Assembly (NCBI GenBank): GCA_030950365.1
Contig: JAUZRQ010000013.1
Coordinates: forward strand, 1 to 64,000
DNA: 64,000 nucleotides
Source of the DNA: Candidatus Zhuqueibacterota bacterium
GTDB taxonomy: Bacteria > Zhuqueibacterota > Zhuqueibacteria > Zhuqueibacterales > Geothermadaptataceae
Reading direction: 5' to 3'
A model generated the notes under the pieces. That model was not told the origin of the DNA. It saw only the letters and a list, made by a program, of their open reading frames with translations, and searched no databases. How positions within the stretch are numbered: the stretch's first letter is position 1; every line of letters begins with the position of its first letter. This document shows, piece after piece, positions 6,086 to 33,730 of this stretch. The translations under genes were made by a program, and so were the position numbers.

Positions 6086-6385
6086 TCACTTATGACTCAA
6101 AAAACACTCTCGCATGCATTTCAAAATCCGCAGGACGAACGGCTCGGCGATGGAATAGTACACCATGTTGCCTTCGCGCCGGGATTTTAGTAGCCCGCGC
6201 ACGCGCAGCACGTTCAAATGCTGCGATGTGACCGCCTGCGGTTGGTTGACAATGCTCTGAATTTCACTGACGTTTTTTTCTCCGTTTTCCAGTGCCTGAA
6301 TGATGCCCAATCGCACCGGATGCGCCACGGCTTTCAAAATTTCCGATGCCATGATCATGAGCTGCGGATCGATCACTTCTTCCAT
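6086..6385 (-). CDS. ArsR-family regulator, sHdrR/SoxR-like candidate
   Basis: A 99-residue winged-helix protein with the ArsR signature HPVRLGIIQAL, recognition helix around QPQAVTSQHLNVLRVRGLLKSRREG and wing NMVYYSI. Two cysteines sit in the last helix (LKCMRECFLSHK). ArsR-type repressors of sulfur-oxidation operons (sHdrR, SoxR) sense per-sulfidated cysteines. The C-terminal pair could serve that role, but the second, more N-terminal cysteine of those proteins is absent if translation begins at 6385 (AGGTGA site); it would be present if translation started at 6412, where no ribosome site is seen. It lies in the same strand unit as the Soe genes, 105 bases ahead of them. Its function as sulfur regulator is inferred from context. 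Confidence 0.75.
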   Translation of the reverse strand: MEEVIDPQLMIMASEILKAVAHPVRLGIIQALENGEKNVSEIQSIVNQPQAVTSQHLNVLRVRGLLKSRREGNMVYYSIAEPFVLRILKCMRECFLSHK

Positions 6386-10127: not shown

Positions 10128-10139
10128 GTTGCCTCCGCT

Positions 10140-17878: not shown

Positions 17879-18642
17879 TTCTTAATCCCTTTCTCCTGAA
17901 GAATTTTGATGATCTTTTCAGCGATTTCTTCGGGCGACCCTTCCAGCATTTCCGCGCCAGCGCCTTTTTCCGGCTTAAACATGCGGCGGATGCTGGAGCC
18001 GATGTTGGCTTCGGTATCGTTCGCTTCCACTTCTTCGATTTCGGCCTGGCGCATCACCTGGCGCACGCGGCTCACCGGCGCATAGCGCGGCGTTTGCCGG
18101 GCGGCCTGCACACCAAATACGGCAGGCAGGTCCACTTCAAATTCCGCCATCACACCGCCGGCGTATTCTTTTTGCACCGTCACGGCGCCGTTGCTGGGCG
18201 CAACGCCGCTGACCACGCTCACGTGCGGCACATCCAGATAATTGGCCAGCAGCACGCCGAGCTGGCCGTCGCGATCATCGGCAGCCTGCACACCGGTCAG
18301 AATCAGATCATACTCCATTCCCGAAAGCACGCTGGCCAAGGCCTTTGCCAGCACATGGTTCGGCGTACCCGGCGGCAGATCGTTGGTGATCTTCACCGCA
18401 CGATCGGCGCCTTTGGCAATGGCCGTATACAGCACCTTGTCGGTGTCATCGCCCTCGAAAGCGATCACCGTCACGGTACCGCCGTGCTCTTCCTTCAGCA
18501 GCAGCGCTTCTTCCAGCGCATGTTCATCGAATTCATTCAGCTTGTAACTGAGATAGTCCCGGTCCAGATCGGTACCGTCGTCATTGATTTCCAGCTCCTC
18601 GACCAGATCGGGGACCTGCTTCACGGGCACAATAATGTTCAT
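17875..18642 (-). CDS. etfB: Electron transfer flavoprotein beta subunit
   Basis: A 255-residue EtfB beginning MNIIVPVKQVPD, with LNEFDEHALEEAL, the nucleotide-binding segment LILTGVQAADDRDGQLG and the C-terminal signature region EVDLPAVFGVQAARQTPRY. The last 40 residues are an acidic and lysine-rich tail with a helix ending EKGIKK. It overlaps etfA by four bases and follows the fused hdrC-hdrB gene by 50 bases with GGAG upstream, consistent with one transcript. Confidence 0.95.
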   Translation of the reverse strand: MNIIVPVKQVPDLVEELEINDDGTDLDRDYLSYKLNEFDEHALEEALLLKEEHGGTVTVIAFEGDDTDKVLYTAIAKGADRAVKITNDLPPGTPNHVLAKALASVLSGMEYDLILTGVQAADDRDGQLGVLLANYLDVPHVSVVSGVAPSNGAVTVQKEYAGGVMAEFEVDLPAVFGVQAARQTPRYAPVSRVRQVMRQAEIEEVEANDTEANIGSSIRRMFKPEKGAGAEMLEGSPEEIAEKIIKILQEKGIKK

Positions 18643-18692
18643 AGCCTGTTCATCTCCTTAAAAATGGGTTTCATGGACATCGGTTCGTTGTC

Positions 18693-19973
18693 TCAATTCG
18701 CGGCCATGGCCTCGACCACGAGCTCGATGATATCGCGCACCACCAGCTTGCCTTCGTTGCCGGTGGATTTGACCGCATCTTCAAACCGCGATACTTCGTA
18801 CGGACAGCATACCGCCAGCACCTCAGCGCCAACTTCCACGGCTTCACGCACGCGGCGTTCGGAAAGCCGCTCGCTCACGTGATCGGCCATGAAGCCATCC
18901 AACCACATGCCGCCACCACCGCCGCCGCAGCAATAGCTATTTTCCCGGCAGCGGAACATTTCGATCAGCTCCACGCCCGGCAGCGCCTGCAGAATCTGCC
19001 GCGGCGCCTCGAACTCACCATTATGGCGGCCAAGATAGCAAGGATCATGGAACGTCACCTTATAATCCAGCTTTTTCGTGAAGTTTAGCTTTTCCAACAT
19101 TGGCGCCAGGAAAGTGGTGTAATGCACCACATCGTATTTGCCGCCGTATTTTGGATATTCCTTCCGCAGAGCATTCAGCGCATGCGGATCGGTGACCAGA
19201 ATCTTTTTGAATTTATAGCGCTTCATGGTTTTGATGTTTTGCTCGGCGAATTCTTCGAACAGGCCGATTTCGCCGGCCAGCCGCTGGCTGTCACAGGTGC
19301 ATTTTTCTTCTACGCCGAGAATGCCGAAATCCACGCCCAGCTCATTCAGCACGCGTGCCAGCGCTTTGCTGGCATCGATGCCGCGTGGATGATAGCTTGG
19401 ATAACACTCGACAAACCATAACACCTCGGCCTGCTTTTTCTCTTTCATGATGGGCACTGGCACGCCGGCATCTTTAGTCCAGGCGGCGCGCTTCTTTGGT
19501 GACTCGCCAAGTGGATTGCCGTAATCGAAGGTATTCTCGAAAGCCTGCTGCAACTCTTCCGGTACGTAGCCTTCCAGCACCGCTTCCTGCCGCACGGCAG
19601 GCATGATCTGGATCATGTCCACCTCTTTCGGGCACACACGCAGGCAGTTCATGCAGGTGGTGCATTGCCACAGCAGCGGGCTCTGGAATAGATCCTCCCC
19701 CCATTGGACGCGGCGAAAAATTTTTCGTGGACCGTAATCCCCTACCAGATTGACCGGACATACCGGCACACACTGTCCGCACTGGTAGCAATAGCCCAGC
19801 GACTCGCCACCTTCCAGGGCTGTCACCTTGTCCAGCATCTCCGTGTTGTAATCCCAGATCACCCGTTGTTCGAACATGCGGTTCCAGTGGCCGGAAATAT
19901 CCATACCTTCTTGAACAACATGTTCCTTTTCGATGATTTGATCGGGATCGATGGAATGCTTATTTGAAGCCAT
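18693..19973 (-). CDS. Fused HdrC-HdrB (HdrD-like) subunit of the sHdr system
   Basis: A 426-residue soluble protein: N-terminal HdrC part with CYQCGQCVPVCPV and CTTCMNCLRVCPK, then an HdrB part with two CCG domains. The second CCG is intact (DPCYLGRHN and ENSYCCGGGGGG); the first is altered to EKCTCDSQ, so one noncubane cluster is likely. In the usual sHdr order (C1-B1-A-hyp-C2-B2) this gene occupies the C2-B2 place as a single fused gene. The ATG at 19973 has GGAG at proper spacing; the longer TTG start at 19979 is less likely. Its position beside etfBA suggests it passes electrons to Etf. It also resembles the soluble half of Emo (14383-16548). Confidence 0.83.
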   Translation of the reverse strand: MASNKHSIDPDQIIEKEHVVQEGMDISGHWNRMFEQRVIWDYNTEMLDKVTALEGGESLGYCYQCGQCVPVCPVNLVGDYGPRKIFRRVQWGEDLFQSPLLWQCTTCMNCLRVCPKEVDMIQIMPAVRQEAVLEGYVPEELQQAFENTFDYGNPLGESPKKRAAWTKDAGVPVPIMKEKKQAEVLWFVECYPSYHPRGIDASKALARVLNELGVDFGILGVEEKCTCDSQRLAGEIGLFEEFAEQNIKTMKRYKFKKILVTDPHALNALRKEYPKYGGKYDVVHYTTFLAPMLEKLNFTKKLDYKVTFHDPCYLGRHNGEFEAPRQILQALPGVELIEMFRCRENSYCCGGGGGGMWLDGFMADHVSERLSERRVREAVEVGAEVLAVCCPYEVSRFEDAVKSTGNEGKLVVRDIIELVVEAMAAN

Positions 19974-20025
19974 ATTCAATGCTCCTCGCGGTTAAACGTG
20001 GGTCTTTTTCAAATCCAATCATTGC

Positions 20026-20781
20026 TCAGACGGATGTGGGCTTGTCCTCTTCGCGGGTGCCCTGATACACCCCCAGAAGTCTCCGCGAAAACTCCGGCAA
20101 GTCAGGAACCACCTTATTAAACTCCTGAGTCATTCGCATACGTAGTACGGTGTACACATAGATCACATACACACAGCTCAAATACACATCCGTACCAAAA
20201 ATGCTCTTACGGATGGCCTGAAACGAGGCGGCACTACCAACTTCGTGTACAAATGCCACGGCTTCGCCAACACGCATGTAAATATCGCCAACGGTTTCGC
20301 CTTCCAAGTTAAAGGTAGAATATGTAACCAGAGGCAGCGCTCCAGTTTTCACCTTCGGGTCCCACATCCAGCGCGTCCATAGCCAATATTGCTCGGGATC
20401 GGCAAAATGCAAAATCTCGCTGGCCACATCACAGCGCAACCGGACATCCAGGCCGTCAAAGCGATCGACAAAGGTTTGAAAACGGGATTTGAGCGGCCCG
20501 GAGCCATATAGCAGCTCCCGGGTCCATGCTTTCAAATCCTGTATTGGATACGTCTCCATGATTTTATCTGCCCGACGGCGAACAGCAAAGATGCGACGCA
20601 AAAGCGAATAATAATTGGCCGCGGACATCCGCTCGATGCCCTCCGGGCTTAAATGCTGCTGAAACCAACCCGCTTTGCCCTCCACTTCTGAACAGATAGC
20701 TGCCAGCTCATCGGCTGCCACCTTGTCCAGCGTTTCACGCATAAATTCGCGAGCAGTTTCGGTATCAACGACCTGTCTCAT
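20026..20781 (-). CDS. Conserved sHdr-cluster 'Hyp' protein
   Basis: A 251-residue mostly helical protein with no cofactor motif. It contains a conserved-looking stretch EILHFADPEQYWLWTRWMWDP (about residues 124-144) and only a few cysteines (C30, C116 and one near residue 205). Its place, directly after hdrA and before the hdrC-hdrB fusion, is the same as the conserved hypothetical gene found between shdrA and shdrC2 in sHdr clusters, and the length fits. Its role in the complex is unknown; a structural subunit is the simplest idea. Confidence 0.75.
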   Translation of the reverse strand: MRQVVDTETAREFMRETLDKVAADELAAICSEVEGKAGWFQQHLSPEGIERMSAANYYSLLRRIFAVRRRADKIMETYPIQDLKAWTRELLYGSGPLKSRFQTFVDRFDGLDVRLRCDVASEILHFADPEQYWLWTRWMWDPKVKTGALPLVTYSTFNLEGETVGDIYMRVGEAVAFVHEVGSAASFQAIRKSIFGTDVYLSCVYVIYVYTVLRMRMTQEFNKVVPDLPEFSRRLLGVYQGTREEDKPTSV

Positions 20782-20828
20782 TGGGCATCACATTGCATTG
20801 TCGGTTGATGGAATGACCAGCTTTTTAC

Positions 20829-21887
20829 TCAGGCTGCTTGAGCTACTTTGCGTAACATCGATACCGCCTTCAGAGCGGCTGCACTGGCCGAGGAGATTGA
20901 ATCTTCCAGGTCGGCTGGGCCGGTGCACGCACCACAGGCGAACACGCCCTCCTTGCTGGTAGTCACCGTATTCAGGGCGCCACCAATGGTCTCGATGAAA
21001 TTATATTTATTGGTTTCCAGGCCGAAAACTTTGGCCATTTCTTTGGTGCCGGCGCTGGGCTCCATGCCGACCGACAGCACCACGATATCCATAGGCACTT
21101 CCATCGGTCGGCCAAAGGTCGCATCTTCTCCCCGGACAATGAGCTGATCACCTTTCTTCAGCACTTCGGTGGCAATGCCTTTAATATAGTTGACTTTGTA
21201 CTTTTCCTGCGCCGGCCAGTAAATTTCATTCTCCCAATAACCATACATACGCATGTCAATATAGAAGATAAACACCTTGCAATCCGGCACCTGCTGGCGC
21301 ACTTCGATGGCCTCCTTGGAGGCAATGCCGCAGCATACTTTGGAACAGTATTCATTGCCAATCTGCCGATCACGTGAACCGACACATTGAATAAAACATA
21401 ACCGTTTCGGTGGCTGCCCGTTAGAGGGCCGCACCACTTTGTGGGCCTTTAACATCTTTTCCAGGTCCACCAGGGTAATCACGTCATCGAATTCATAATA
21501 GCCATACTGCTGGGTTTCACGCCCCGGATCGAAATGCGTGAACCCCGTGGCGATGATAACGGCACCAGCTTTCACTTTTTCCACCCCTTTAGCATTTTTC
21601 AGCGTGACCTCAAAGTCGCCGACGCTACCAGAAGCGGCCGTTACAGTGGAATTCAAATGCAATTCAACATTGGGATGGTTCTGTACTGCATCGGCCATTT
21701 CTCGCATCGCTTCTTCAGCAGGGCGGAAGTCCGGCGTCAATGCAGCATAGTTTGCCTCATCCGGGGTTCCCCCCAACCGGTTGCGCTTTTCCACCAGGAT
21801 AGCCTTGTAGCCCAAGTCGGCGACCCCGCGAGCTGCCTCCAAACCGGCAGGCCCGCCGCCCACAATTAATACGGATTGTTCAGGCAT
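20829..21887 (-). CDS. hdrA: sHdrA flavoprotein subunit
   Basis: A 352-residue HdrA core: FAD-binding VLIVGGGPAGLEAARG at the N-terminus, ATGF segment, and the HdrA cluster motif CVGSRDRQIGNEYCSKVCC with GIASKEAI. The end GVFACGACTGPADLEDSISSASAAA is the second FAD motif. It lacks the extra ferredoxin domains of methanogen HdrA, which is typical of sHdrA. The start at 21887 (second ATG) has GGGAGG six bases upstream and overlaps hdrB1 by eight bases. As the flavin subunit it would receive electrons from oxidation of lipoyl-bound sulfur. Confidence 0.92.
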   Translation of the reverse strand: MPEQSVLIVGGGPAGLEAARGVADLGYKAILVEKRNRLGGTPDEANYAALTPDFRPAEEAMREMADAVQNHPNVELHLNSTVTAASGSVGDFEVTLKNAKGVEKVKAGAVIIATGFTHFDPGRETQQYGYYEFDDVITLVDLEKMLKAHKVVRPSNGQPPKRLCFIQCVGSRDRQIGNEYCSKVCCGIASKEAIEVRQQVPDCKVFIFYIDMRMYGYWENEIYWPAQEKYKVNYIKGIATEVLKKGDQLIVRGEDATFGRPMEVPMDIVVLSVGMEPSAGTKEMAKVFGLETNKYNFIETIGGALNTVTTSKEGVFACGACTGPADLEDSISSASAAALKAVSMLRKVAQAA

Positions 21888-23073
21888 CAACATCCTCCCA
21901 GGTTAAATATTGCTTTTCTCCACGCTTGATTTTTTCCACTTCGTCTTCGAATTCCTTCCAGGCTTTTTCCACATCTATACCGATTTTTTCCAACAACGGT
22001 TTGTTGTCGGTGTTGTGCCAATGCAACTGCAACACCTTGTAAGGGTGGGCTCCCATAGCCAGTGCCGCCATCTGCGAATCAGACATGACCGGCACACCCA
22101 CGTTCCGGCCATGCGCCTTGGCCGCAAACTGGCTTTGATCCAGCGTGGTCACGCAACCGGTATCGTGCGTCACCACCACATCCGGATCAGCTTCTTCTTT
22201 CATGACTTCGATTTTGCGCTGCGTGGCAAACGAACGTGAGAAATCGCGCGAGACCAGGATATGGCGAAATCCAAATCCACAGCAGTCGTACCAGGTTGAA
22301 TAATCGCGCACCTCCACACCAATGGCTTTTAGCGTGGCCGTAATAACGGCTGTACGCTGAGCACCATAAATTTCCGGGTCGTAAATCGCGTCTTCACGTA
22401 CCAGCTTATGGTAATGGCAGGCAGGATGCACGGTGGCCGCCACCATGCTCATATCACGCACCTGCAGTTCCGCAATCCGGTGCCGCATTGCATGCACCCA
22501 TTCACTATAATGCACGATTTCTTCGGGCATCACCAGTTTTTTACCCAACTTGGCAAGGATATCCCGCACCTGCCGGCGTAGTTCTGGACTATGGATCAGT
22601 TCCTGGCGGACTTCTTTATAATGCCCGAAACTGGTCCCACAATGGATAATCGGAAAATACCCGGTTTCGGCCGCAGCAGCAAAATTGCGCATGGCCACTG
22701 CCGCCTGCGCCGCCACGTTGGATGTGGCCGAAGCATAGTAATTCCATGCTGTACAAGAGGTCTGGTCGGTAGGATCCAGATAATCCAAGCCGAGCTTACG
22801 GTTAATCCAGAATATGGATGTGGAATATCCCGGGATATGCCCGCATTGGCCACAGCTTTTATGGTGCCAGGTAGTGTTAATGGGAATCTTTTTTTTGCGG
22901 CCAAACTTGGTTTCCACTTCGATATAGGGTTCAGGAACTCGCTGTACTTCCCATTCTCCTTCCTTTTCCAATTGGAAGATAATATCATGATAATCTTCCG
23001 TGGGGGCATCGGCCGGATTGACGTTGAATTGCCGTTCACTGGCCGGCTTAACTAACGTTTCAACCGGTATCAT
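21880..23073 (-). CDS. hdrB: sHdrB1 CCG-domain subunit
   Basis: A 397-residue HdrB-type protein. The N-terminal half has cysteines HKSCGQCGHIPG, QTSCTAWNYYAS and HCGTSFG; the C-terminal CCG domain has HPACHYHKLV, WYDCCGFGF and HDTGCVTTL. Such motifs bind a noncubane [4Fe-4S] pair in HdrB, the site of disulfide chemistry. In sHdr the substrate is thought to be sulfur bound to lipoyl-LbpA. It is about 100 residues longer than HdrB of methanogens, with an N-terminal extension of about 70 residues and an acidic C-terminal tail. A GGGAG site lies before the ATG. Confidence 0.9.
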   Translation of the reverse strand: MIPVETLVKPASERQFNVNPADAPTEDYHDIIFQLEKEGEWEVQRVPEPYIEVETKFGRKKKIPINTTWHHKSCGQCGHIPGYSTSIFWINRKLGLDYLDPTDQTSCTAWNYYASATSNVAAQAAVAMRNFAAAAETGYFPIIHCGTSFGHYKEVRQELIHSPELRRQVRDILAKLGKKLVMPEEIVHYSEWVHAMRHRIAELQVRDMSMVAATVHPACHYHKLVREDAIYDPEIYGAQRTAVITATLKAIGVEVRDYSTWYDCCGFGFRHILVSRDFSRSFATQRKIEVMKEEADPDVVVTHDTGCVTTLDQSQFAAKAHGRNVGVPVMSDSQMAALAMGAHPYKVLQLHWHNTDNKPLLEKIGIDVEKAWKEFEDEVEKIKRGEKQYLTWEDVDA

Positions 23074-23115
23074 AAAAAGGTCTCCCTTGTTTTACGTTCC
23101 AAACCAACGAGGTAT

Positions 23116-23820
23116 TTAATCGAAGGTGACGTCATAACCTTCTTCTTCCAGCCGTTCTTCCATCACGTCGGCCAGAATCATAAATAACCCTTCATCCACT
23201 TCCTTAATCATATCCATCACGCCTGTGTGGTGCCAAATAAGGTATAATTCGATAATGGTTTTATCGCTCACCTGCCAGCCGGTCTCGGTAGTATGCAGGG
23301 TTTCGGGGGGCAACGCTTTGCGCCAAAGGTCGAGATTGTCGGAGATTTCTTTAACATGAGGCCCCCAATCAGGGAAAGCGCTGGGTTGTAACATATCTGG
23401 AGATACCTGGGTGCCCGTACTCATAATTTTGTAAACAATGCGACCGTATCCTTCCAGGGCTTGCTGGGCGCTAGCCAGACCATTTTTGACCGCAACCTCC
23501 CGCATGACGGTAATAAGACCACCAGGAGAGTTTTGCCGTGGACACCGATCGCAGGAAAAACACTGCGAACAATCCCAGATGCTATCATTGAGGAAAATGT
23601 AAAATAGCTCCACGTCTTCACGGGCTACAGCCTGGGCAATCTTGCGCGGACTGAAATCATAAAATCGCGCCGATGGACACGCCGCTACACAGATGCCACA
23701 CTCATAGCATCCATAAAGGTATTCATCAAAGCGCATGTCCCGTTTCACTTCATTAAACAGGCGTTCCTTTTCTTCATAAGGAACCTCGGCATAACGGTTT
23801 TGGCTCAGGTCTAATGCCAC
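23116..23820 (-). CDS. hdrC: sHdrC1 iron-sulfur subunit
   Basis: A 234-residue protein with two [4Fe-4S] motifs, CYECGICVAACPS (residues 38-50) and CSQCFSCDRCPR (about 84-95), as in HdrC. The C-terminal half is helical and acidic. Translation starts at GTG (23820) with AAGGGAG seven bases ahead. It would relay electrons between HdrB1 and HdrA in the cytoplasmic complex. The gene begins after a 121-base AT-rich gap with a terminator-like hairpin, so the core hdr genes may have their own promoter. Confidence 0.92.
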   Translation of the reverse strand: MALDLSQNRYAEVPYEEKERLFNEVKRDMRFDEYLYGCYECGICVAACPSARFYDFSPRKIAQAVAREDVELFYIFLNDSIWDCSQCFSCDRCPRQNSPGGLITVMREVAVKNGLASAQQALEGYGRIVYKIMSTGTQVSPDMLQPSAFPDWGPHVKEISDNLDLWRKALPPETLHTTETGWQVSDKTIIELYLIWHHTGVMDMIKEVDEGLFMILADVMEERLEEEGYDVTFD

Positions 23821-23941: not shown

Positions 23942-24412
23942 TTAAGCTTCAAAACCTTCGACGTGCTCGCAGCCTTTAATATCGTCCGCTTCAATCTTCT
24001 TCTTATACGCCTCCACGGCCGCATCTCCAGTCACCAATGCCTTCAATTCTTCATCCAGGTTGGTGGGTTGCATCTTCACAATCCATCCCTTCCGATACGG
24101 GCTGCGATTGATGATCGTGGCATCCTTCTCGATTTCTTCATTCACTGCAATGATTTCACCAGAAATCGGCGATTTAACGGGGCCAACCCATTTGGCACTT
24201 TCTACCGTTGCCACGGGACGCCCCTTTTTACGACTGGTACCAACCGCCTTGGTCTTCGCGTGTAGCAAGGGCCCGGCCATATTCTGGGCGATATCCGTCA
24301 TCCCGATATTGACGGTGCCATCGTCGTTGAGTTGGACCCAGGTATGATCATCCACACTGTAGTATAAATCTGTCCGGATCACACATCCACGAATCTCTTG
24401 CGTATCTGCCAT
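23942..24412 (-). CDS. lbpA: Lipoate-binding protein LbpA of the sHdr system
   Basis: A 156-residue H-protein-like lipoyl carrier. The lipoyl lysine is K74 within TVESAKWVGPVKSPISG, a form typical of sHdr-linked LbpA rather than GcvH. The first 25 residues include RGCVIRTDLYYSVDDHTWV. A 30-residue helical tail follows the lipoyl domain. GGAGGAG precedes the ATG at 24412; an in-frame extension to 24436 is not needed. LbpA is proposed to hold sulfur intermediates on its dihydrolipoyl arm while sHdr oxidises them. It sits between the sulfur-transfer genes and hdrC1. Confidence 0.92.
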   Translation of the reverse strand: MADTQEIRGCVIRTDLYYSVDDHTWVQLNDDGTVNIGMTDIAQNMAGPLLHAKTKAVGTSRKKGRPVATVESAKWVGPVKSPISGEIIAVNEEIEKDATIINRSPYRKGWIVKMQPTNLDEELKALVTGDAAVEAYKKKIEADDIKGCEHVEGFEA

Positions 24413-24448
24413 TGTGTTTCTCCTCCACAAACTCAATGATCTTCAAAA

Positions 24449-24829
24449 TTAGAAATACATGACGTGATCGGATTCCAGCGCCAGATTGATGATGCTGGTC
24501 GCACCGAGGATTTCCACGCCATCGATCAAGTCATCCTGCGTCATATTCCACAAAGCCAAACTTTGCTGACACACACGCAATTTCACACCGGAGTCGATGG
24601 CCTGCTCCAGCATGGTTTTCAGGGTCACATCGCTGGTCGGGTCCAGTTTGATCTTTTCGGCTTCGCCTTTTTTCAACTGGTTGGTGCCGTTCATGGTAAA
24701 CCAGACCATCACATCCATTTCCATCGCTGCCGCTGCCATGGCGTAAAACAATGGCGAATAGGTTCTCGTGGGCGTTTCCACACCGTGCGTTTGAATCACC
24801 AGGATCTTTTTGCCTTCAAAATCGTCCAC
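24449..24829 (-). CDS. DsrE-family sulfur-transfer protein
   Basis: A 126-residue DsrE/F-fold protein starting at GTG with GGAG upstream. The conserved cysteine is C87 in GVKLRVCQQSLALWNMTQDDL, matching the active cysteine of DsrE-like sulfur carriers, and the C-terminus ATSIINLALESDHVMYF is typical of the family. It would take sulfane sulfur from TusA and hand it on toward LbpA, whose gene starts 37 bases downstream. No rhodanese gene was found in the island. Confidence 0.87.
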   Translation of the reverse strand: MDDFEGKKILVIQTHGVETPTRTYSPLFYAMAAAAMEMDVMVWFTMNGTNQLKKGEAEKIKLDPTSDVTLKTMLEQAIDSGVKLRVCQQSLALWNMTQDDLIDGVEILGATSIINLALESDHVMYF

Positions 24830-25156: not shown

Positions 25157-26230
25157 CTATTCCGCCTTCTGCTGCAAACTCATGAGTACCGATACCCAAT
25201 CCTCGATTTCCACACCTGGCGTTTGTACATCGTGATCCTCATAAAATTGCCCCACCCGCTCGCGAATGGCATCGGGCTCAAGTCGCACATTCACCAGCGC
25301 TTTTTCCAGATCGGTAAACAGCCGGTGCGGATGGAAGGTGAAATCGCCGGACAGCGACAGGTCTTCGATGCGATCGTGATGCAACCGCGCCATGGCCCGC
25401 ACCAGCCCGCCACGCGCTTTCAGCATCGCCTCCATCACCCAAACATCCTGATGAATCTTTACCCCATCTCGCATCAGACCGCTTTTCTGGTATAGCCAGG
25501 ATTCAGACTGGAATTTTTCATCCAGGGTTTCGATCGTAGCAAGTTCATCCGGCGTGAGCTCTCCCTCCACGATCTCTTCGCCCAGCGCCTTTTCACATTC
25601 ACGCATGTAAACCGCCTTCACGTCTTCGCGGTCCGGCACCGTCTGCAGTTCCTTTTTCATGGTGGTCATGTATTCCTGCAGACTCTGAAACACCTTGTCC
25701 CGAAATTTTTCGGAAGGCACTTTCAATACCCGGGCCATGAGTTCGGTATTGAAATCGAACAGAAAGCTGCCTACCATCACTTCGGCCTGCCCTATGGCAG
25801 CCGCACCGGTACCTCCGATTTTCCTTCCGGAAACATGAATATCGTTGATGGGACGAAATTCGGCCTGAATGCCGAAAGCATGGTAGGTTTGCACGAGCGG
25901 GCGGGCATAAATTTGAAATCGTTTGTTGAGGTTCCAGGGAAGACGGTCTGGCGCCATGATCCACTGGGTGAACATTTGATTTTCATCCAGCAGCACCGCG
26001 CCACCACCAACTTCACGTCGTAGCACCGGGAGCCCCTTTTCACGGCAGAACGTCATATCCACCTCTTTATCCACCTCCTGATGAAAACCCACGCACACAT
26101 ATGGTTCCTTCGGATTCATCAGAAGAATGGTGTCCGGGGTGTGATCGGTTCTGGCATAGGCCACCCCATGATACACGGTTTGCGAACGCAGATACGATAC
26201 GGTGCCCAGGTCCACGAGCCGAATAGCCAT
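25157..26230 (-). CDS. Lipoate-protein ligase family protein next to lbpA
   Basis: A 357-residue ligase-fold protein. The lipoyl-AMP motif reads RREVGGGAVLLDE (residues 71-83) and the catalytic lysine is K137 in HVSGRKIGGTG. Residues from about 235 form a C-terminal domain like that of bipartite sLpl(AB). It lies two genes upstream of dsrE and lbpA, so LbpA is the likely target. It is closest in build to the Lys-to-Arg paralogue at 9084-10127 (both start with a similar IRLV-LG strand) and more distant from that at 12774-13898. Confidence 0.85.
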   Translation of the reverse strand: MAIRLVDLGTVSYLRSQTVYHGVAYARTDHTPDTILLMNPKEPYVCVGFHQEVDKEVDMTFCREKGLPVLRREVGGGAVLLDENQMFTQWIMAPDRLPWNLNKRFQIYARPLVQTYHAFGIQAEFRPINDIHVSGRKIGGTGAAAIGQAEVMVGSFLFDFNTELMARVLKVPSEKFRDKVFQSLQEYMTTMKKELQTVPDREDVKAVYMRECEKALGEEIVEGELTPDELATIETLDEKFQSESWLYQKSGLMRDGVKIHQDVWVMEAMLKARGGLVRAMARLHHDRIEDLSLSGDFTFHPHRLFTDLEKALVNVRLEPDAIRERVGQFYEDHDVQTPGVEIEDWVSVLMSLQQKAE

Positions 26231-26289: not shown

Positions 26290-26808
26290 TTAGATAAACA
26301 AAGTCACATCAGCATCCGCAGCATACTCCAGGAACGTGGCCGCGCCACCAATTTCGCACTCGTCTATGAATTCTTCTTTAGTGAAGCCAAATACATCCAT
26401 GGTCATCTGGCAGCCAATCATCCGCACTTCCAGGTCCACACAAGCCTCACGGAGCTGCTCTATAGAAGGCACGCCCTTATTCTTGAACGTCTGCTTCATC
26501 AGGCTTGTGGCCACCGATTCGAAGCCGGGCAGGTTGGAGGTGAGCAAATTGGGAATCGGCCAGTTGATTTTCTGAAATGCTTTGGGCCCGAAGGGCATTT
26601 TCATGGGCATGGCCGGATTGCCCACCGGCGAGACGGCAGCATCCAATTTTTTCCTAAGCAGTGGCAAGCCGTAAAAGGTGAAGAAAATGGCAACTTCCCA
26701 ATCCATTGAAGCGGCGGCGCTACCAAGAATGAATGGCGGATACGCCCAATCCAGTGTGCCTTTGCTGGCGATCATAGCGAGGCGCCGTTTTCCATTTTCT
26801 TGTGCCAT
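26290..26808 (-). CDS. DsrE3-like sulfur-transfer protein
   Basis: A 172-residue DsrE2/DsrE3-type protein. Two cysteines ten residues apart, C123 and C133 (ACVDLEVRMIGCQMTMDVFG), match the pair seen in DsrE3A proteins of sHdr organisms; C151 follows in DECEIGGAATFLE. The N-terminal part (RLAMIASKGTLDWAYPP, then FFTFYGLPLL) has the DsrE alpha/beta fold. It is encoded 74 bases after tusA, and such proteins accept sulfur from TusA. It would be the first relay toward LbpA. Confidence 0.87.
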   Translation of the reverse strand: MAQENGKRRLAMIASKGTLDWAYPPFILGSAAASMDWEVAIFFTFYGLPLLRKKLDAAVSPVGNPAMPMKMPFGPKAFQKINWPIPNLLTSNLPGFESVATSLMKQTFKNKGVPSIEQLREACVDLEVRMIGCQMTMDVFGFTKEEFIDECEIGGAATFLEYAADADVTLFI

Positions 26809-26882: not shown

Positions 26883-27122
26883 CTAATGGGTTTTGCGAAT
26901 CAAAAAGCGAAATTTGCCGCCATCGAGTTCTTCTGCCACCAGCAGTTCGTGTTGCGTTTGCTTGGCCCAGGCTTCCATGTCTGGAATCGAGCCCGGATCG
27001 GTGGCGATCATCTCCAGCACCTGTCCCACTTCCAAATCATTCATCGCCTTTTTGGTTTTCACAACCGGCATCGGGCATAAAAGCCCGGTACAGTCCAACA
27101 TTTTATCGGCTTTGGCCTCCAC
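26883..27122 (-). CDS. tusA: TusA-family sulfur carrier, canonical
   Basis: A 79-residue TusA protein with C11 and the CPxP motif C16-P-M-P (DCTGLLCPMPVVKTKKAM). The GTG at 27122 is chosen because GAAGGAGGAG lies six bases upstream and the resulting length is normal; a longer frame to 27167 would begin inside the upstream hairpin. C16 would carry the persulfide passed to the DsrE proteins encoded next. The later part (IATDPGSIPDMEAWAKQTQHELL) is standard for TusA. Confidence 0.92.
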   Translation of the reverse strand: MEAKADKMLDCTGLLCPMPVVKTKKAMNDLEVGQVLEMIATDPGSIPDMEAWAKQTQHELLVAEELDGGKFRFLIRKTH

Positions 27123-27162
27123 GAAAACTCCTCCTTCCAGAATCCGTTTCTGTTTTAACGTT

Positions 27163-27185
27163 AACAAGAATACGCCATTCTTGTT
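27163..27185 (-). terminator. Hairpin directly after the TusA-like gene
   Basis: AACAAGAAT (27163-27171) and ATTCTTGTT (27177-27185) form a perfect nine-base stem with a five-base loop that touches the stop codon of the upstream gene. The downstream tail on the minus strand (taacgttaaaac) is only weakly T-rich, so this may be an attenuator or mRNA-stabilising stem rather than a full terminator. Confidence 0.6.
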
Positions 27186-27467
27186 TTAGCTGATCCGCTC
27201 TTTACAGCGGATAAAAAAACTGACCTGGTCGCCCCGCTCATAGACATCAATAAGTTCATGACCGGTGACGCGACACCAGGCTGCAACATCCGCAGGAGCG
27301 CACGGATCGTCCCAGATCAGCTCCAGGATTTGCCCGGCCACCATCGTCTCCAATGCGGCTCGCAACTGCAGAAGTGGCATCGGCTCCATTTGCCCAAGGC
27401 AGTCCAGTCGTCGTGAGACAACAATAATCGGAGATGGCTGCCGAGAATCATTATGGGACGCTGTCAT
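27186..27467 (-). CDS. TusA-like protein lacking the catalytic cysteine
   Basis: A 93-residue protein that aligns with TusA over its length (LDCLG, PMPLLQLRAAL, DDPCAPADVAAWCRVTGHEL). The CPxP motif is changed: after LDCLG the sequence is Q-M-E28-P-M-P, with glutamate where the sulfur-bearing cysteine should be. C23 of LDCLG is kept, and two new cysteines lie at about C56 and C65. It is the first gene of the island, 63 bases before the true tusA start. It may be a regulator, chaperone or a partner that docks to TusA-binding proteins without carrying sulfur. Confidence 0.78.
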   Translation of the reverse strand: MTASHNDSRQPSPIIVVSRRLDCLGQMEPMPLLQLRAALETMVAGQILELIWDDPCAPADVAAWCRVTGHELIDVYERGDQVSFFIRCKERIS

Positions 27468-28170
27468 AACCGGGGTTCCTCTATTCGGCCCGCCTTTTCG
27501 ACGTGCCTGCGGCCCCAAAGAACCCCACGACGAATCGGCCGAGCCCTTCCTGCATGCCTCTCTTTTAAGCAAACTCCATACCATCGCAGGATCATCAAAA
27601 TATATGAATATACTTATCGAATAAGTTATTAATTTTAAAATTGTTAAATTCAATTAATAATTTTAATAATCGCGACCACCGTGTCCGAAGGGAGGGCATT
27701 TTGTGGTGAGAATTCGGGAATATGGCAAAAATACCCTAATTTGTGCGGCGCATTTCTATACCTCCCGTATTTTAGGTGCCTGCACAAAAGTTTGGCGGCC
27801 CATCGAAACGTGCCATAATTTGCATGCGGATCGACCGAATGGATGCCTACTTTCTAGATCGCCTATCAGCCAGCCAATTACAATGCAATATCTGTAACGA
27901 GCACTTATCCCCTGGTCATGCAATTATCCGTGTTCAATCCGTGGCTTCGAAAAATCCGCTGATGATTCAGCCATAAGTTCATTCGGTCCTTCCGGCTTCA
28001 TCGTAAGAGAGACATTGAGATATGCATCCCCCTTCTTCATGCGGAGATTGGCGGGGAAAACGGAGTGGCCAGATAGCATCAAAATTGTACGTGTGGCGGG
28101 ATAGCCAAAATCTGGTTATGCAGCTCGCTTGGCATTCAGTCTGAACGCAGCCATTAGCCCATCATCGCGC
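27468..28170. other. Upstream region of the sulfur island; AT-rich core
   Basis: 703 bases without a firm gene. 27585-27680 is very AT-rich with nested palindromes (AATTTTAAAATT) and is the best place for the promoter and operator of the sHdr genes; TTGAAT and AATAAC at 17-base spacing on the minus strand are a weak candidate. A 50-codon plus-strand frame at 27824-27976 contains CNICNEHLSPGH but lacks support and is not called. No sigma-54 site was found for the minus strand. Confidence 0.5.
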
Positions 28171-29571
28171 TTATTCTTTGAAATCCCACTTGCTCAGCCC
28201 GTGCCGGCGCATTTTTTCACAGAAATTCTTGTAATCCATCTGCGCTTCCCGCGCTGCATCGACGATGCGGCCGCCATGCTTTTCCAGCAGCCGGCTCAGG
28301 TAATCCTTTTCGAAACGGTTCAGCAGATCGGTTTTGGCCTTTTTGAACGGTACGCCATCATACACATAGTATTTGAACTCCTTCTCGTTTTTCTTGGGCA
28401 GCAGACACTTCTGAATGGTCGCCTCCTGGATCTGCCCAGACTTTTCGATGATCACGGCGCGTTCGATGACGTTTTCCAGCTCGCGGATGTTCCCCGGCCA
28501 GCGGTAGTTGAACAGGGTCTGAATCGCCTCGGGCGTGATGCTCTCAATCTCTTTTTTGAACTTTTCAGCATAAAGCCGGGTAAAATGCACCGCCAGCAAA
28601 GGCAAATCATCCATGCGCTCACGGAGTGGAGGAACATGGATGACGACCACGTTCAACCGGTAAAACAGGTCTTCCCGAAACTCACCTTTACCGATGGCTT
28701 CCTGCAAATCTTTGTTCGTGGCAGAAATAACCCGCACATCCACCTGGATGCTCTGGTTGCTGCCCAGTCGTTCGAAGGTTTTTTCTTGTAGCACCCGCAG
28801 CAGTTTGGCCTGGGTAGCCAATGGGATATCGCCGACCTCATCGAGAAAAATGGTGCCGGAATCGGCCTCCTCAAACCGACCGATACGGGTTTTGATGGCA
28901 CCGGTGAAGGCGCCACGCTCATGGCCAAACAGCTCACTCTCCAGCAAATTCTCCGGCAGCGCAGCACAATTGACGCGCACAAACGGCCGGTCGCGTCGAC
29001 TGCTGTTGTAATGGATAGCTTTGGCGATGAGTTCCTTACCAGTGCCGGTCTCCCCATAGATCAAAATCGTCGCATCGGTATTGGCCAGGTCCTCGATTAG
29101 TTCATAAATTTCCTGCATTTTGTGCGATTTACCTATGATGTTGCTGAAGCTGTAGCGCGATTCGACCTCCTGCCGCAGGCGGTGAATTTCCTGCTTCAGT
29201 GCCGCTTGTTCCAGACAACGGTTCAATACCAGAATCAGTTCATCATAATTGATGGGCTTGGTCAGGTAGGTGAGCGCGCCAAGCTGCATGGCCTTTACAG
29301 CGTGCTCAATAGAGCCATGCGCTGTGATGATGATCGTCGGAATGTCTATGCCCTGTTCACGCAATCGTTTAAGCAGGGTCAACCCATCCAGATTCGGCAT
29401 CATGTAATCGGCAATAATCACATCGACGCGTTCTTTTTCTAGCATCGCCAGTGCTACGGCACCATCCAGCGCGGTAACAACGGTAAAACCTTCACGCGAT
29501 AGGTTAGCCTGCATCACTTTGAGTGTAGCTGGCTCGTCATCGATAACTAAAATGGTGTTCTTTGGCTTCAT
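28171..29571 (-). CDS. NtrC-family sigma-54 response regulator
   Basis: A 466-residue regulator: receiver domain (1-120) with phosphoacceptor D55 in VIIADYMMPNLDG, AAA+ domain with Walker A GETGTGKE (173-180), the sigma-54 contact loop GAFTGA (220-225) and arginine finger region (RWPGNIRELEN), and a Fis-type DNA-binding helix-turn-helix near residues 430-460. It overlaps the start of the kinase gene frame by 35 bases and is its partner. A consensus sigma-54 promoter at 31346-31361, in front of the divergent FadL-like gene, is its most likely target. Confidence 0.95.
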   Translation of the reverse strand: MKPKNTILVIDDEPATLKVMQANLSREGFTVVTALDGAVALAMLEKERVDVIIADYMMPNLDGLTLLKRLREQGIDIPTIIITAHGSIEHAVKAMQLGALTYLTKPINYDELILVLNRCLEQAALKQEIHRLRQEVESRYSFSNIIGKSHKMQEIYELIEDLANTDATILIYGETGTGKELIAKAIHYNSSRRDRPFVRVNCAALPENLLESELFGHERGAFTGAIKTRIGRFEEADSGTIFLDEVGDIPLATQAKLLRVLQEKTFERLGSNQSIQVDVRVISATNKDLQEAIGKGEFREDLFYRLNVVVIHVPPLRERMDDLPLLAVHFTRLYAEKFKKEIESITPEAIQTLFNYRWPGNIRELENVIERAVIIEKSGQIQEATIQKCLLPKKNEKEFKYYVYDGVPFKKAKTDLLNRFEKDYLSRLLEKHGGRIVDAAREAQMDYKNFCEKMRRHGLSKWDFKE

Positions 29572-31057
29572 AGACTTTCAATGTTGTTGGAAAACGCAAA
29601 ACCGCTTTGGTTCCTACATGATCACGAGGCTCCAGGTGCACCGAACCCTGGTGGCTATTCATAATTTTGCGCACCACCGGTAACCCCAGTCCGGTACCAC
29701 GCAATTTGGTGGTCACAAACGGCTTAAACAAATCCTCAGGATCGCGTTCCCCCAGCCCCTCGCCATCATCTTCAATGATCAGCACGACCTCATGCAAACT
29801 ATTGGCCGGCATGGCCTGATCGTAATAGCAAGAGATGCGGAGGCGACCACCCGGTTGCATGGCATCGATGGCATTGTCGATCAAATTCAGCAGCGCCCGC
29901 TCCACCTGGACTTCATCCAGTGGCAGCAATGGTAAATTGCCATCCATGTCAAGCTGGACCCGTATCTTTTTCGAACGGATACGCTCCTGCATGGTCTTGA
30001 GCGCATTCTCGATTAGGGGCTGAATCTGACAGTAGGAAAACTCCAAAAACAGGGGGCGGGCATAATCGAGCATTTCGTCGGTTACGGCGTTCACCCGCTT
30101 GACTTGCTCGTCGATGATCTGCAAGTACGACTGCAGCTCCTCGTTTTCGATCTCGCCTTTCAAAAAGCGTACGGCCCCAGCGATGGCGTTGAGGGGATTT
30201 CGCACCTCATGCGCTACGATCGACCCCATTTTGCCGATCTCGGCAAGATTTTTGGCCTGCTCGAGATGTTTCTGCATTTTTACGGCTTCAGTCACATCCT
30301 TCACATATTCAATCACCTGCTCCACTTGGCCGGCTTCATTCAGCAGCGGAAAGTCGTAAATCTCAAAAATGCGCTCTTCATTACCATACGAAGTACGTTT
30401 GGTGCATTGGGTGAAAGAATGGCCGCCAAGTTGAAACACCGTATCGGCGCGGCAGAACGAACAGCGACTCTCCCGTCCCTGGCACATCTCGAAACAATGC
30501 TCTCCCGAAAGCTCATCCAGGCTCTTACCGATCAGCTTCTCCATCACCGGGTTGGCATCCACGATGCGGTAGTTGCGATCGATGATCATGATGCCATCCG
30601 GGATGCCGACAAAAATGGCTTCCAGCTTTTCGTTGGCCTTTTTCAACCGACGGGATATCTCCTCGGCATTCTCTTTCGCCTGCCGCAGATCGTGAATATT
30701 TTGCCGCAAACGACGCACCATTTCGTTAAATCCGAGAAACAGCATATCCATTTCATCCGCCGGCTCGCTCAGGCCATTCACTTCCATTTGCACTTCGAGA
30801 TTTCCATTTTGCACCTCTTTCACCTTGTCGGTAAGATCGATCACCGGTTGAACCATGATGCGCGCAATTACGGAAATCCCTGTGATGCCGACGGCAATAT
30901 AAAACACCGTCTGCCAGATAAGCCCGGTTTTTAACCCCATCATACCGGAGTAAATAAAAAAATACAGCAGCAGACTGCCAAATACAGAAAACATGACCAA
31001 AAGACTGATACTGGACAGCATGAATTTTTTCTTTAATCCCGCGCGATAACTCGCCAT
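29537..31057 (-). CDS. PAS sensor histidine kinase, membrane-bound
   Basis: A 506-residue kinase with two membrane helices (about 13-36 and 47-66) separated by only about ten residues, so there is almost no periplasmic sensor. HAMP (67-120), PAS (about 145-255), HisKA with H283 in VAHEVRNPLN, and HATPase with DNAIDA, DDGEGLG and GTGLGLPV follow. The PAS domain holds cysteines C188, C192, C199 and C202 (plus C218), spaced as a possible metal or redox site. The signal is thus probably cytoplasmic or membrane-derived. The gene overlaps the response regulator and faces the FadL-like gene. Confidence 0.93.
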   Translation of the reverse strand: MASYRAGLKKKFMLSSISLLVMFSVFGSLLLYFFIYSGMMGLKTGLIWQTVFYIAVGITGISVIARIMVQPVIDLTDKVKEVQNGNLEVQMEVNGLSEPADEMDMLFLGFNEMVRRLRQNIHDLRQAKENAEEISRRLKKANEKLEAIFVGIPDGIMIIDRNYRIVDANPVMEKLIGKSLDELSGEHCFEMCQGRESRCSFCRADTVFQLGGHSFTQCTKRTSYGNEERIFEIYDFPLLNEAGQVEQVIEYVKDVTEAVKMQKHLEQAKNLAEIGKMGSIVAHEVRNPLNAIAGAVRFLKGEIENEELQSYLQIIDEQVKRVNAVTDEMLDYARPLFLEFSYCQIQPLIENALKTMQERIRSKKIRVQLDMDGNLPLLPLDEVQVERALLNLIDNAIDAMQPGGRLRISCYYDQAMPANSLHEVVLIIEDDGEGLGERDPEDLFKPFVTTKLRGTGLGLPVVRKIMNSHQGSVHLEPRDHVGTKAVLRFPTTLKVYEAKEHHFSYR

Positions 31058-31408
31058 GGTTTACTCCCTCCGGTCAGGGATGGGTGGTTGGAAAATTGGG
31101 TCCACTGCAACAATCTGCCTTCCTGGCAGATATCTACGATGCGGGTGTGTATTTTACTTCATTTTCATAAATATTTCAACTTTTTTTAATGAGATTTTAA
31201 AAATTTCGATTCCGGCCAACATTTTTGGCCATTTTGGGGTAAAAACGCCCTCTTTATGGTTTCGATGCCCTATTTCTTGCCTTTGCGGCAAATCCATTTT
31301 CCGGTAGTATCCCTGTTTTTCCCACAATTTTGATACCAAGCTCTATGGCACCATTCTTGCTAAAAGGTCAAAGATGTCATATCTCTAAAAATATCGGAGG
31401 GCAGGAGT
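31058..31408. other. Divergent regulatory region between kinase and FadL-like gene
   Basis: 351 bases that must hold promoters in both directions. It includes a small stem CTGCC/GGCAG near 31118-31132 and the sigma-54 promoter at 31346-31361. Upstream activator sites for the NtrC-type regulator would be expected about 80-200 bases before the promoter; no clear palindrome was picked out. Confidence 0.5.
31346..31361 (+). promoter_or_regulatory. Sigma-54 (-24/-12) promoter
   Basis: TGGCAC (31346-31351), five bases, then TTGCT (31357-31361). The GG and GC are exactly ten bases apart and every consensus base is met. It lies 47 bases ahead of the FadL-like start codon, next to genes for a sigma-54 activator. 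Confidence 0.88.
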
Positions 31409-32683
31409 ATGAGACACCGTACCCGTTTTATCTATGCGAAACGGGTTGCGCCCGTGGCCCTGTTTCTTTTCCTATTTCTCGCCATCGAACACGGGCATGC
31501 GACCAACGGTTACTTTTCTCATGGCTATGGTATTCGCTACAAAGGCATGGCTGGCGCCGGGGTGGCGCTCTACCTGAGCCCCATGGCCGCTGCGACCAAT
31601 CCGGGCAGCATGGCATTCGTCGGGAAGGGCTATCAGGTTTCTCTGGCGCTGTTCAATCCCAATCGCCAGTACACGGTCGCCGGCAATCCATCCGGGTTTC
31701 CGCAGACGTTCGGCCTTACGCCGGGCACGGTTGAGAGCGACTCTCGCTATTTTTTCGTTCCGTCGCTGGCCGCCAACTGGCGGCTGAAAGAAACCGTCTA
31801 TTTTGGCGTAGCCGTGTTCGGCAACGGCGGCATGAACACCAATTATCCGACCAACACGTTTTACGGCACCACGCCCACGGGCGTAGATTTGATGCAGCTC
31901 TTTGTAGCCGCCACCCTGTCGTTTCAGCTCGCCGAAAAACATGGCATCGGCATCAGCCCGATTTTCTCCTTTCAGCGTTTCCAGGCGCAAGGGTTGCAGG
32001 CCTTTGGCAATTTCTCCAGCGATGCCAATAAACTGACCAACAATGATTACGACAGCGCCACCGGCTTCGGGCTGCGCATCGGCTATTTCGGCCAGTGGAT
32101 GGACTTCCTTGCGTTCGGCGCGGCCTATCAAACCAAAATCAATATGGGGCAGTTCAGCAAATACGCCGGGCTGTTTGCCGGCGGCGGCGATTTCGATATC
32201 CCGGCGAATTGGACCGTCGGCGTGGCCCTGGGCTATGAAGCCTTCGCCATTGCCTTCGATGTGCAACGCATTATGTACAGCTCGATTTCGTCGATTGCCA
32301 ATCCCATGTTTCCGAATTTGCAGCAGGCACCCCTCGGCGCCGATGGTGCGGCCGGCTTCGGCTGGGAGGACATGACCGTGTTCAAAATCGGCGTGCAAAT
32401 GCAGCGCGGTGAGGCCTGGACCTACCGGGCCGGTTTCTCGACGGGTAAACAGCCGATTCCGGAAAGCGAAGTCATGTTCAATATTCTGGCCCCGGGCGTA
32501 ATCGAAAAGCATCTGACCTTCGGCGTGTCGCGCAAACTGAACAGCGGTAAGGAACTCAGCCTGTCGATTACTCGTGCACTGAGCGGCAGCGTCCAGGGGC
32601 CCAATCCGCTGGAAGCCCCCAACCAGCAAACCATCGAATTGAAAATGGATCAGTGGGAATTCGGCGTTGCGCTGACATTTTGA
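31409..32683 (+). CDS. FadL/OmpP1-family outer membrane porin
   Basis: A 424-residue protein with a signal peptide (cleavage near AIEHGHA-TNG) followed by the FadL start NGYFSHGYGIRYKGMAGAGVAL and NPGSMAFVG, and repeated amphipathic strands ending in F (GVALTF), the outer-membrane C-terminal signal. FadL proteins pass hydrophobic molecules; in sulfur oxidisers FadL-like porins have been suggested to take up sulfur, but fatty acids or hydrocarbons are equally possible. A good GGAGG site lies ahead of the ATG. It is transcribed from a sigma-54 promoter and followed 18 bases later by a DUF302-like gene. Confidence 0.87.
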   Translation: MRHRTRFIYAKRVAPVALFLFLFLAIEHGHATNGYFSHGYGIRYKGMAGAGVALYLSPMAAATNPGSMAFVGKGYQVSLALFNPNRQYTVAGNPSGFPQTFGLTPGTVESDSRYFFVPSLAANWRLKETVYFGVAVFGNGGMNTNYPTNTFYGTTPTGVDLMQLFVAATLSFQLAEKHGIGISPIFSFQRFQAQGLQAFGNFSSDANKLTNNDYDSATGFGLRIGYFGQWMDFLAFGAAYQTKINMGQFSKYAGLFAGGGDFDIPANWTVGVALGYEAFAIAFDVQRIMYSSISSIANPMFPNLQQAPLGADGAAGFGWEDMTVFKIGVQMQRGEAWTYRAGFSTGKQPIPESEVMFNILAPGVIEKHLTFGVSRKLNSGKELSLSITRALSGSVQGPNPLEAPNQQTIELKMDQWEFGVALTF

Positions 32684-32701: not shown

Positions 32702-33730
32702 ATGATGAAAACGATTCGAACCTATCTGCTTGCGGCGGTGCTGCTGATGAGCACCGCTACGGTTTTTGCCATGCCCGAGAAAAACAACAGGGGCTTTGGC
32801 GTGTATCAGTACGTTGTTGAGCAGGCCGAAGGCGACCTGGACGCCATTTTGGATTCCATCAAGTCCGCAGCCGGAGCCGCCGGCTGGCAGGTGCTTGCCG
32901 ATGTCGCCGGCGGCGTGCCTGAGGGCTGCAAATACCGCACGCACGTGCTTGTGCTGGCCGATTCGGCGTATGCGGATCAAATCATGCAGGCCAATCGGGT
33001 CACGGGACCATTCGCCGTTGTTGACCGCGTCAATGTGTTTGAAGATGAACGCGGCGTGCACGTGTCGGTGGTCAATCCGCACTCCATCAACCGCACCGTG
33101 CTGATGGATGACGAGGCCTACATGGAGATGACCGAAGCGCACTTGCAGAAACTGCGCGGCATGATCACTTCCGCGGTGAAAGGCACTGTAAACGAAAAAG
33201 AATATGGACAATTTCGCAAAAAGGGTTATATTGGCAAAACCATGGGCGTGATGGCCGGCGGCAAGTTCATCGACAAACTGGTGGCCGTGGCCACGGTTTC
33301 CGGGCAGGGCTGGCAGTCGGTGGCCGCCCGGGTGCGCGAAGGTCTATCCAAACCATCGGCAAAATGGGGCATGCACCGGGTGTATGAGCTGGCACTGCCG
33401 GACTACAGGACCGTCGTCTTCGGCACCACGGGCACGCCCATGGATAGCAAGTCGTTCAGCATTGTTCGTGCCGGCAGCGATAAATCGCGCAAGAAGTTCA
33501 AGTGTCCCGGACTGGCGCATGCCGGCGCCTATCCCATTGAGGTGGTGGTGGCCGAGAATGAGGACGGTAGTGTCAGCGTGCGGCTGGTGGAAACCATGTT
33601 CCGGATGAAGATGTATTTCGAAGATGCCGGCAAATGGGCATTCATGAAAAACATGCGCATGCCCGGCTCGATTCAAAAAGAGCTGGTACAGCAAATTCGC
33701 TCGGCCCTACAACCCATGACCGCCAAATAG
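32702..33730 (+). CDS. Secreted protein with two DUF302-like domains
   Basis: A 342-residue protein with signal peptide (cut near TATVFA-MPE). Two similar halves are seen: about 35-145 and about 195-340. The first contains VVNPHSINRTVLMDDEAYMEM and a helix LQKLRGMI; the second VRLVETMFRMKMYFED and a helix SIQKELVQQIRSAL, as in DUF302 proteins. Two cysteines, in GCKYRTHV and KFKCPGLAH, are far apart. It is co-transcribed with the FadL-like gene and ends before a strong terminator. DUF302 function is not known; a periplasmic partner of the porin is an inference. Confidence 0.65.
   Translation: MMKTIRTYLLAAVLLMSTATVFAMPEKNNRGFGVYQYVVEQAEGDLDAILDSIKSAAGAAGWQVLADVAGGVPEGCKYRTHVLVLADSAYADQIMQANRVTGPFAVVDRVNVFEDERGVHVSVVNPHSINRTVLMDDEAYMEMTEAHLQKLRGMITSAVKGTVNEKEYGQFRKKGYIGKTMGVMAGGKFIDKLVAVATVSGQGWQSVAARVREGLSKPSAKWGMHRVYELALPDYRTVVFGTTGTPMDSKSFSIVRAGSDKSRKKFKCPGLAHAGAYPIEVVVAENEDGSVSVRLVETMFRMKMYFEDAGKWAFMKNMRMPGSIQKELVQQIRSALQPMTAK

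Follow-up and report, generated by a model that had tools for sequence, protein, structure and literature searches.

Results

Gene content of the locus

The window, that is, the whole 64,000-nucleotide stretch of DNA analysed here, comes from the draft genome of a Candidatus Zhuqueibacterota bacterium (5.0 Mb in 136 contigs, 95% complete). Comparisons extended over 63 genomes of the class, in which G001 belongs to the same genus, G003 and G005 (close to each other) to a second genus of the family, and G028 to another family; G007 and G008 are also close to one another.

On the minus strand, positions 16910-23820 hold the seven genes of an sHdr core, namely shdrC1 (23116-23820), shdrB1 (21880-23073), shdrA (20829-21893), hyp (20026-20781), a fused shdrB3 with Fer4 and two CCG stretches (18693-19979), etfB (17875-18642) and etfA (16910-17878). 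This arrangement corresponds to type II sHdr, which has been defined as shdrC1B1A-hyp-B3 together with etfAB in one syntenic cluster (PMC11582611). The same strand carries genes for two TusA-family sulfur carriers (26883-27467, comprising 27186-27467, with a revised start, and 26883-27167), a DsrE3-like protein (26290-26808), a lipoate-ligase-like protein (25157-26230), a DsrE-like protein (24449-24829) and a GcvH-like protein (23942-24436), which is a candidate for the lipoate-binding LbpA from its gene context. The names LbpA and EtfAB were given from similarity and context.

A two-component system is encoded on this strand as well, by genes for an NtrC-family response regulator (28171-29571; PF00072, PF00158) and a sensor histidine kinase with HAMP, PAS, HisKA and HATPase domains (29537-31057). 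The response regulator has the composition of an NtrC-family activator (bEBP), with a receiver, an AAA+ domain bearing an intact GAFTGA loop (Sigma54_activat, 254.6 bits) and a C-terminal Fis-type helix-turn-helix, for which the HTH_8 score of 21.1 bits lies just under the cut-off of 22. Thus, a kinase and a GAFTGA activator do lie opposite fadL, as the initial annotation had stated, and the divergent order of fadL and the kinase gene is kept in G003, G005 and G007. An activator 57% identical to this one is encoded in G013 (C308:5896-7275), a genome that lacks this kinase as well as FadL and sHdrB1.

On the plus strand, beyond a 351-bp intergenic gap, lies the gene for a FadL/TodX-type outer-membrane protein of 424 aa (31409-32683), whose PF03349 (Toluene_X) score of 63.1 bits against a cut-off of 29.7 places it among the FadL/OmpP1/TodX porins. 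Its ATG (31409) is preceded by a good Shine-Dalgarno sequence (ggagggcaggagt). The second gene of the unit (32702-33730, plus strand) encodes a protein with an N-terminal signal-like segment, previously labelled DUF302. By sequence the label fails, as the protein scores 17.0 bits against the 23 bits of Pfam DUF302 (PF03625), and all members tried were below the cut-off or gave no match. By predicted fold it holds: the model (mean pLDDT 65, better in the N-terminal domain) matches 1q9u (TM-score 0.77 by target length) and 1j3m. The protein is accordingly accepted as having a DUF302-like fold on the predicted structure only, and not as a Pfam member. A SulP gene lies at 34057, after a gap of 326 bp from this unit.

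Two other gene groups of the minus strand are recorded here. At 9084-14000, two further lipoate-ligase-like genes accompany a pair of radical-SAM-like genes; together they likely serve lipoate assembly for the sHdr pathway. Positions 1259-6089 contain genes for a molybdopterin oxidoreductase with Fe-S and membrane subunits, similar to the Soe/Phs type, and orthologues of these genes directly follow the fadL-DUF302 unit in G007 and G008.

A putative sigma-54 promoter ahead of fadL

The sequence TGGCACCATTCTTGCT (31346-31361, plus strand) is a perfect TGGCAC-N5-TTGCT, with GG and GC 10 bases apart and no mismatch to the -24/-12 pattern TGGCAC-N5-TTGCW; it places the predicted transcription start at about 31372. 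It ends 47 bases before the fadL-like ATG, in agreement with the initial annotation. The absence of rpoN had been named as a finding that would speak against this promoter; the gene is present in the genome (G000:C12; Sigma54_DBD, E 1.4e-62). In the 64-kb window this is the only perfect match, against 0.11 expected by chance. At least one perfect match was found in 10 of 100 shuffled windows, and a motif with such a chance rate over 64 kb is not decisive by itself. A chance match on the correct strand of the intergenic gap is nevertheless unlikely. Genome-wide, 15 perfect matches were counted versus 4 for a reversed control pattern; when the genes behind the other perfect sites were inspected by eye, no other sulfur genes were recognised. 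Some perfect matches precede heat-shock-like genes, two of them (L002, G000:C15:74933; L015, G000:C107:55547) genes that by eye resemble Hsp20-Lon and ClpB, which suggests sigma-54 heat-shock control in this lineage.

Conservation was then considered. The block 31345-31360, which holds all of the promoter but its last base, is identical to G001 at 16/16 positions, and the element itself (31346-31361) at 15/16, with T against A at the last base, while the flanks have diverged (29/72 identical upstream, 22/34 in the downstream leader). The initial annotation had proposed to look for the element before orthologous fadL genes. Besides G001, it occurs in G003 and G005 as TGGCACCATACTTGCG (ATGGCACCATACTTGCG), facing fadL in the same direction 482-485 bp before the gene, and more weakly in G028 as TGGCATTTGTTTTGCT, 362 bp before it; in G007 and G008 there is no more than a weak common site, CGGCATCYGATTTGC (CGGCAT-N5-TTGC). 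In contrast, nothing convincing of the -24/-12 type was found upstream of 36 further homologues from Bacteroidales, Gammaproteobacteria and other phyla, and hence the promoter is no general feature of the FadL family. The scoring matrix for -24/-12 sites was set by hand from general knowledge, and its scores are therefore relative. Taken together, the motif and its conservation support a sigma-54 promoter ahead of fadL.

The leaders between site and gene differ among these genomes. The leader of about 480 bp in G003 and G005 (L074 and L075, about 1250-1740 and 2826-3308) is without an obvious conserved gene; in G028 (L078, about 8300-8590, reverse strand) a short ORF of about 75 codons, with a GTG start and a good Shine-Dalgarno sequence, lies between site and fadL. 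In the window, a sigma-70-like promoter of the divergent kinase gene, TTGAAA-17-TAAAAT, is predicted at 31151-31179 on the minus strand. It falls within an AT-rich block (31148-31196) that is identical at 46/49 positions between the congeners, better kept than the region of the dyad described below, and that may hold more than this likely kinase promoter.

A second element and a shared dyad ahead of the sHdr cluster

The scan was extended beyond the activator gene into the downstream sHdr cluster, where a second -24/-12-like element, TGGTATGGAGTTTGCT (27568-27583, minus strand; TGGTAT-N5-TTGCT), was found 100 bases ahead of the likely ATG (27467) of the first, TusA-like gene. Its spacing and its GG and GC fit TGGCAC-N5-TTGCW, but its -24 box, TGGTAT, is off consensus. 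An element of the form [T/C]GGTAT-N5-TTGC[C/T] occupies the same place in all seven genomes compared (the window, G001, G003, G005, G007, G008 and G028), and GGTAT-N5-TTGC is kept over three families, although the flanks are unalignable between families.

Upstream of both elements lies a dyad, TAKGGT-N6-RCCMTA, which was drawn by eye from the regions of the window, G001 and G028 and then tested. Ahead of fadL it reads TATGGT-N6-GCCCTA (31255-31272, plus strand) and is centred 82 bp before the first T of the -24 element; ahead of the sHdr operon it reads TAGGGT-N6-GCCATA (27721-27738, minus strand), centred 146 bp upstream of the -24 element. Both are proposed activator sites (UAS). Besides these two, one for each putative promoter, the 5-Mb genome has no exact copy, and G001 likewise has two exact copies only, at the corresponding places and distances (82 and 146 bp). 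A second, weaker copy may exist 20 bp further upstream of the fadL dyad (31235-31252, plus strand; 2 mismatches); this is tentative, and G001 has no counterpart at the same threshold. Of 21 one-mismatch dyads examined elsewhere in the genome, only two have a -24/-12-like site nearby, and both score below the window's own.

In the four genomes that had not been used to draw the motif, a dyad with at most one mismatch was found 144-157 bp upstream of the putative sHdr promoter: at 144 bp in G007 (one mismatch) and G008 (none), and at 157 bp in G003 and G005. Shuffled versions of these upstream regions reached such a match in 0-2 of 1000 cases. Given the relatedness of G003 to G005 and of G007 to G008, this amounts to about two independent confirmations rather than four. 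G028, which had served to draw the motif, has the dyad with one mismatch 161 bp upstream of its sHdr element. Dyad and -24/-12-like element thus stand as a pair before sHdr in all seven sHdr-bearing genomes of the class. Before fadL, the dyad is absent from G003, G005, G007, G008 and G028 and occurs within this genus only. Exact dyads elsewhere in G003 and G005 (contigs C246 and C261) and in G028 were discarded, being in coding sequence or near unrelated genes.

Co-occurrence and kinase architecture

An orthologue of the kinase is present in 7 of the 63 class genomes, and sHdrB1 in exactly the same seven. Under random placement, the probability of this overlap is 1.8e-9 by genome and 1e-6 by genus, figures that ignore relatedness. 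The fadL gene occurs in these seven genomes and in G011. The association does not always reflect a single inherited island, since the kinase and sHdr genes of G008 fall on two contigs and the fadL gene of G028 is located away from kinase and sHdr alike.

In the seven orthologues, the N terminus of the kinase has a pair of hydrophobic segments joined by a very short loop, and the HAMP, PAS, HisKA and HATPase domains follow. The PAS domain has the cysteine pattern C-x3-C-x6-C-x2-C and one cysteine more, and all five are invariant (CFEMCQGRESRCSFC ... FTQCT). A protein with almost no periplasmic part and five invariant PAS cysteines is unlikely to sense an external hydrophobic ligand directly, and the earlier suggestion that the system senses a hydrophobic substrate is not supported in that form. 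The likeliest signal is a thiol, Fe-S or sulfane-sulfur state in the cytoplasm, and we note that the PAS cysteines (kinase 29537-31057) might form an Fe-S or persulfide sensor.

Discussion

From the promoter motif and its conservation, the unique shared dyad and the co-occurrence, we infer binding, activation, signal and substrate as follows. Probably, an AtoSC/ZraSR-like pair activates both sHdr and fadL through the dyads and two sigma-54 promoters and so controls dissimilatory sulfur oxidation, with FadL passing sulfur species. The cytoplasmic thiol, Fe-S or sulfane-sulfur signal would be read by the Cys-rich PAS domain, and the kinase would phosphorylate the activator, which would bind TAKGGT-N6-RCCMTA at two places and open RNA polymerase-sigma-54 at the two promoters. 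The minus-strand promoter would serve the tusA-dsrE-lpl-lbpA-sHdr-etf cluster and the plus-strand promoter fadL with the DUF302-fold gene. Poorly soluble sulfur (S8, polysulfide, organic polysulfanes) might then be admitted through the outer membrane by the FadL barrel and reach the cytoplasmic sHdr pathway. The findings suggest that one sensor pair may govern sulfur uptake and sulfur oxidation together.

The earlier proposal that the kinase/activator pair is the likely regulator of fadL gains from the unique shared dyad, the divergent order kept in three other genomes and the co-occurrence. That the system induces its porin is supported in so far as a sigma-54 promoter appears to stand before fadL; the porin, however, is probably not the main target, the putative sHdr promoter being the one kept in all seven genomes. 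The best reading of the sequences is that the pair is the sHdr regulator with fadL as a second target. Outside this genus the dyad is absent before fadL, so the link between this gene and the activator comes from two related genomes and from synteny, and the assignment of the activator is weaker at fadL than at sHdr.

The role of the porin is where another explanation has most room. FadL-DUF302 might import a hydrophobic organic compound unrelated to sulfur, its place beside sHdr being incidental, which we consider unlikely though worth keeping in mind. The PDB relatives of FadL by sequence are the hydrocarbon channels TbuX, TodX and CymD. Moreover, Bacteroidales homologues (39-51% identity) stand among housekeeping genes. 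These unrelated neighbours, together with the presence of fadL in G011, which has neither kinase nor sHdr, also count against our model. Against the import of an organic compound speaks a repeated linkage to TusA, DsrE, sHdr or Soe-like genes in other phyla: a FadL homologue adjoins sHdr and TusA genes of a MAG from Thermoanaerobaculia (L036), TusA/DsrE/lipoate genes in HyVt-532 (L044) and DsrE/TusA in a Desulfobulbaceae MAG (L045), and lies near DsrE and rhodanese in Gammaproteobacteria (L062); a DUF302-like gene follows it in L044, L045, L062 and L064. The dyad common to fadL and sHdr and the co-occurrence with sHdr point the same way, and these observations together support the mention of sulfur as a possible substrate in the initial annotation.

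It is also conceivable, if rather improbable, that the fadL promoter works with a different activator and that the neighbouring pair controls the sHdr operon only. The genome encodes about 31 full-length sigma-54 activators, another of which could act on fadL, and five of the seven genomes lack the dyad before fadL even though the promoter persists in G003 and G005. On the other hand, in this genus the fadL dyad has just a single other exact counterpart genome-wide, and the conserved divergence of fadL and kinase gene favours the neighbouring pair.

The dyads could bind another regulator, for example a sulfane-sulfur repressor like sHdrR or SoxR, and the element before sHdr would then not be a sigma-54 promoter; we give this little credence. 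Indeed, the sHdr regulators documented in Hyphomicrobium are sHdrR and SoxR (PMC12423496, PMC10451225), the element before sHdr departs from the consensus in its -24 box (TGGTAT), and a winged-helix protein is encoded at 6708-7217. It is the only helix-turn-helix candidate of this kind among the genes examined around the sHdr cluster, where no ArsR-type repressor gene was seen. Yet this protein contains no cysteine, and its best resemblance is to HVO_A0261/HxlR domains rather than to ArsR. Furthermore, the dyads precede the predicted starts by about 108 and 172 bp, distances typical for sigma-54 activators and far for a repressor, and GG-N10-GC is invariant in seven genomes. Finally, that the 16-base match at 31346-31361 is a functionless chance motif is very hard to believe: the shuffled windows show that such matches can arise, but its position, its strand, the block identity in G001 amid diverged flanks and the recurrence in a second genus all argue otherwise.

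Control of sulfur oxidation by sigma-54 two-component systems is already known, and what is new in the activation of sHdr and fadL proposed here is the combination with sHdr and FadL. In Acidithiobacillus caldus and A. thiooxidans, TspS/TspR exerts sigma-54-dependent control of the periplasmic sox-II, with the activator site TGTCCCAAATGGGACA and thiosulfate as the proposed signal (PMC6335251). Like the present system, it is a sigma-54-dependent pair beside sulfur-oxidation genes with an upstream dyad, whose role is here a proposed one; the target (sox-II) and site (TGTCCCAAATGGGACA) differ from the sHdr/fadL genes and TAKGGT-N6-RCCMTA of this locus. The ZraSR-like, sigma-54-dependent TcsS/TcsR of Acidithiobacillus ferrooxidans has been reported for the tetrathionate pathway (PMC6335251), which involves neither sHdr nor a FadL porin. 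The likeness, drawn by description and not by sequence, lies in a ZraS/ZraR-type system in sulfur-compound metabolism, our kinase having ZraS and AtoS among its nearest named models. Indeed, AtoS/AtoC and ZraS/ZraR of Escherichia coli are among the closest curated models by score, although the AtoS and AtoC scores (239 and 476 bits) are far below the curated cut-offs (646 and 714) and the targets differ. Unlike AtoS and ZraS, the kinase is without a large sensor domain in the periplasm, and its PAS domain is rich in cysteine. In Hyphomicrobium denitrificans, sHdrR and SoxR are ArsR-type repressors of sHdr-type sulfur oxidation that respond to sulfane sulfur (PMC12423496, PMC10451225), in contrast to the sigma-54 activator system proposed here; if the latter is true, the control of sHdr would extend from ArsR-type repression to sigma-54 activation.

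For the delivery of sulfur, SoxT1A is reported to be the only demonstrated importer, and SoxT to be absent with type II sHdr (PMC11582611). FadL would resemble SoxT/YeeE-type importers (PMC11582611) in a proposed delivery of sulfur to the sHdr pathway, but in another place: SoxT is a transporter of the inner membrane, and FadL would work in the outer one. Our literature search returned no paper joining FadL with sHdr, nor sHdr with a sensor histidine kinase. A bolder version, which we put forward tentatively and with some doubt, is that the sigma-54 two-component system is dedicated to type II sHdr, that its kinase, with the cytoplasmic Cys-rich PAS domain, senses intracellular sulfane sulfur and that the co-induced FadL-DUF302 pair, kept next to genes of sulfur trafficking in several phyla, provides the missing route of zero-valent sulfur through the outer membrane. 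A regulator shared by FadL and sHdr would name concrete candidates both for the outer-membrane sulfur step and for the sensor, and two short DNA sites make these porin and sensor candidates testable. As a separate observation, all but one of the seven sHdr genomes have PF04143 (YeeE-type) matches, in most cases two short ORFs side by side (G000:C23:12266-13460 and counterparts).
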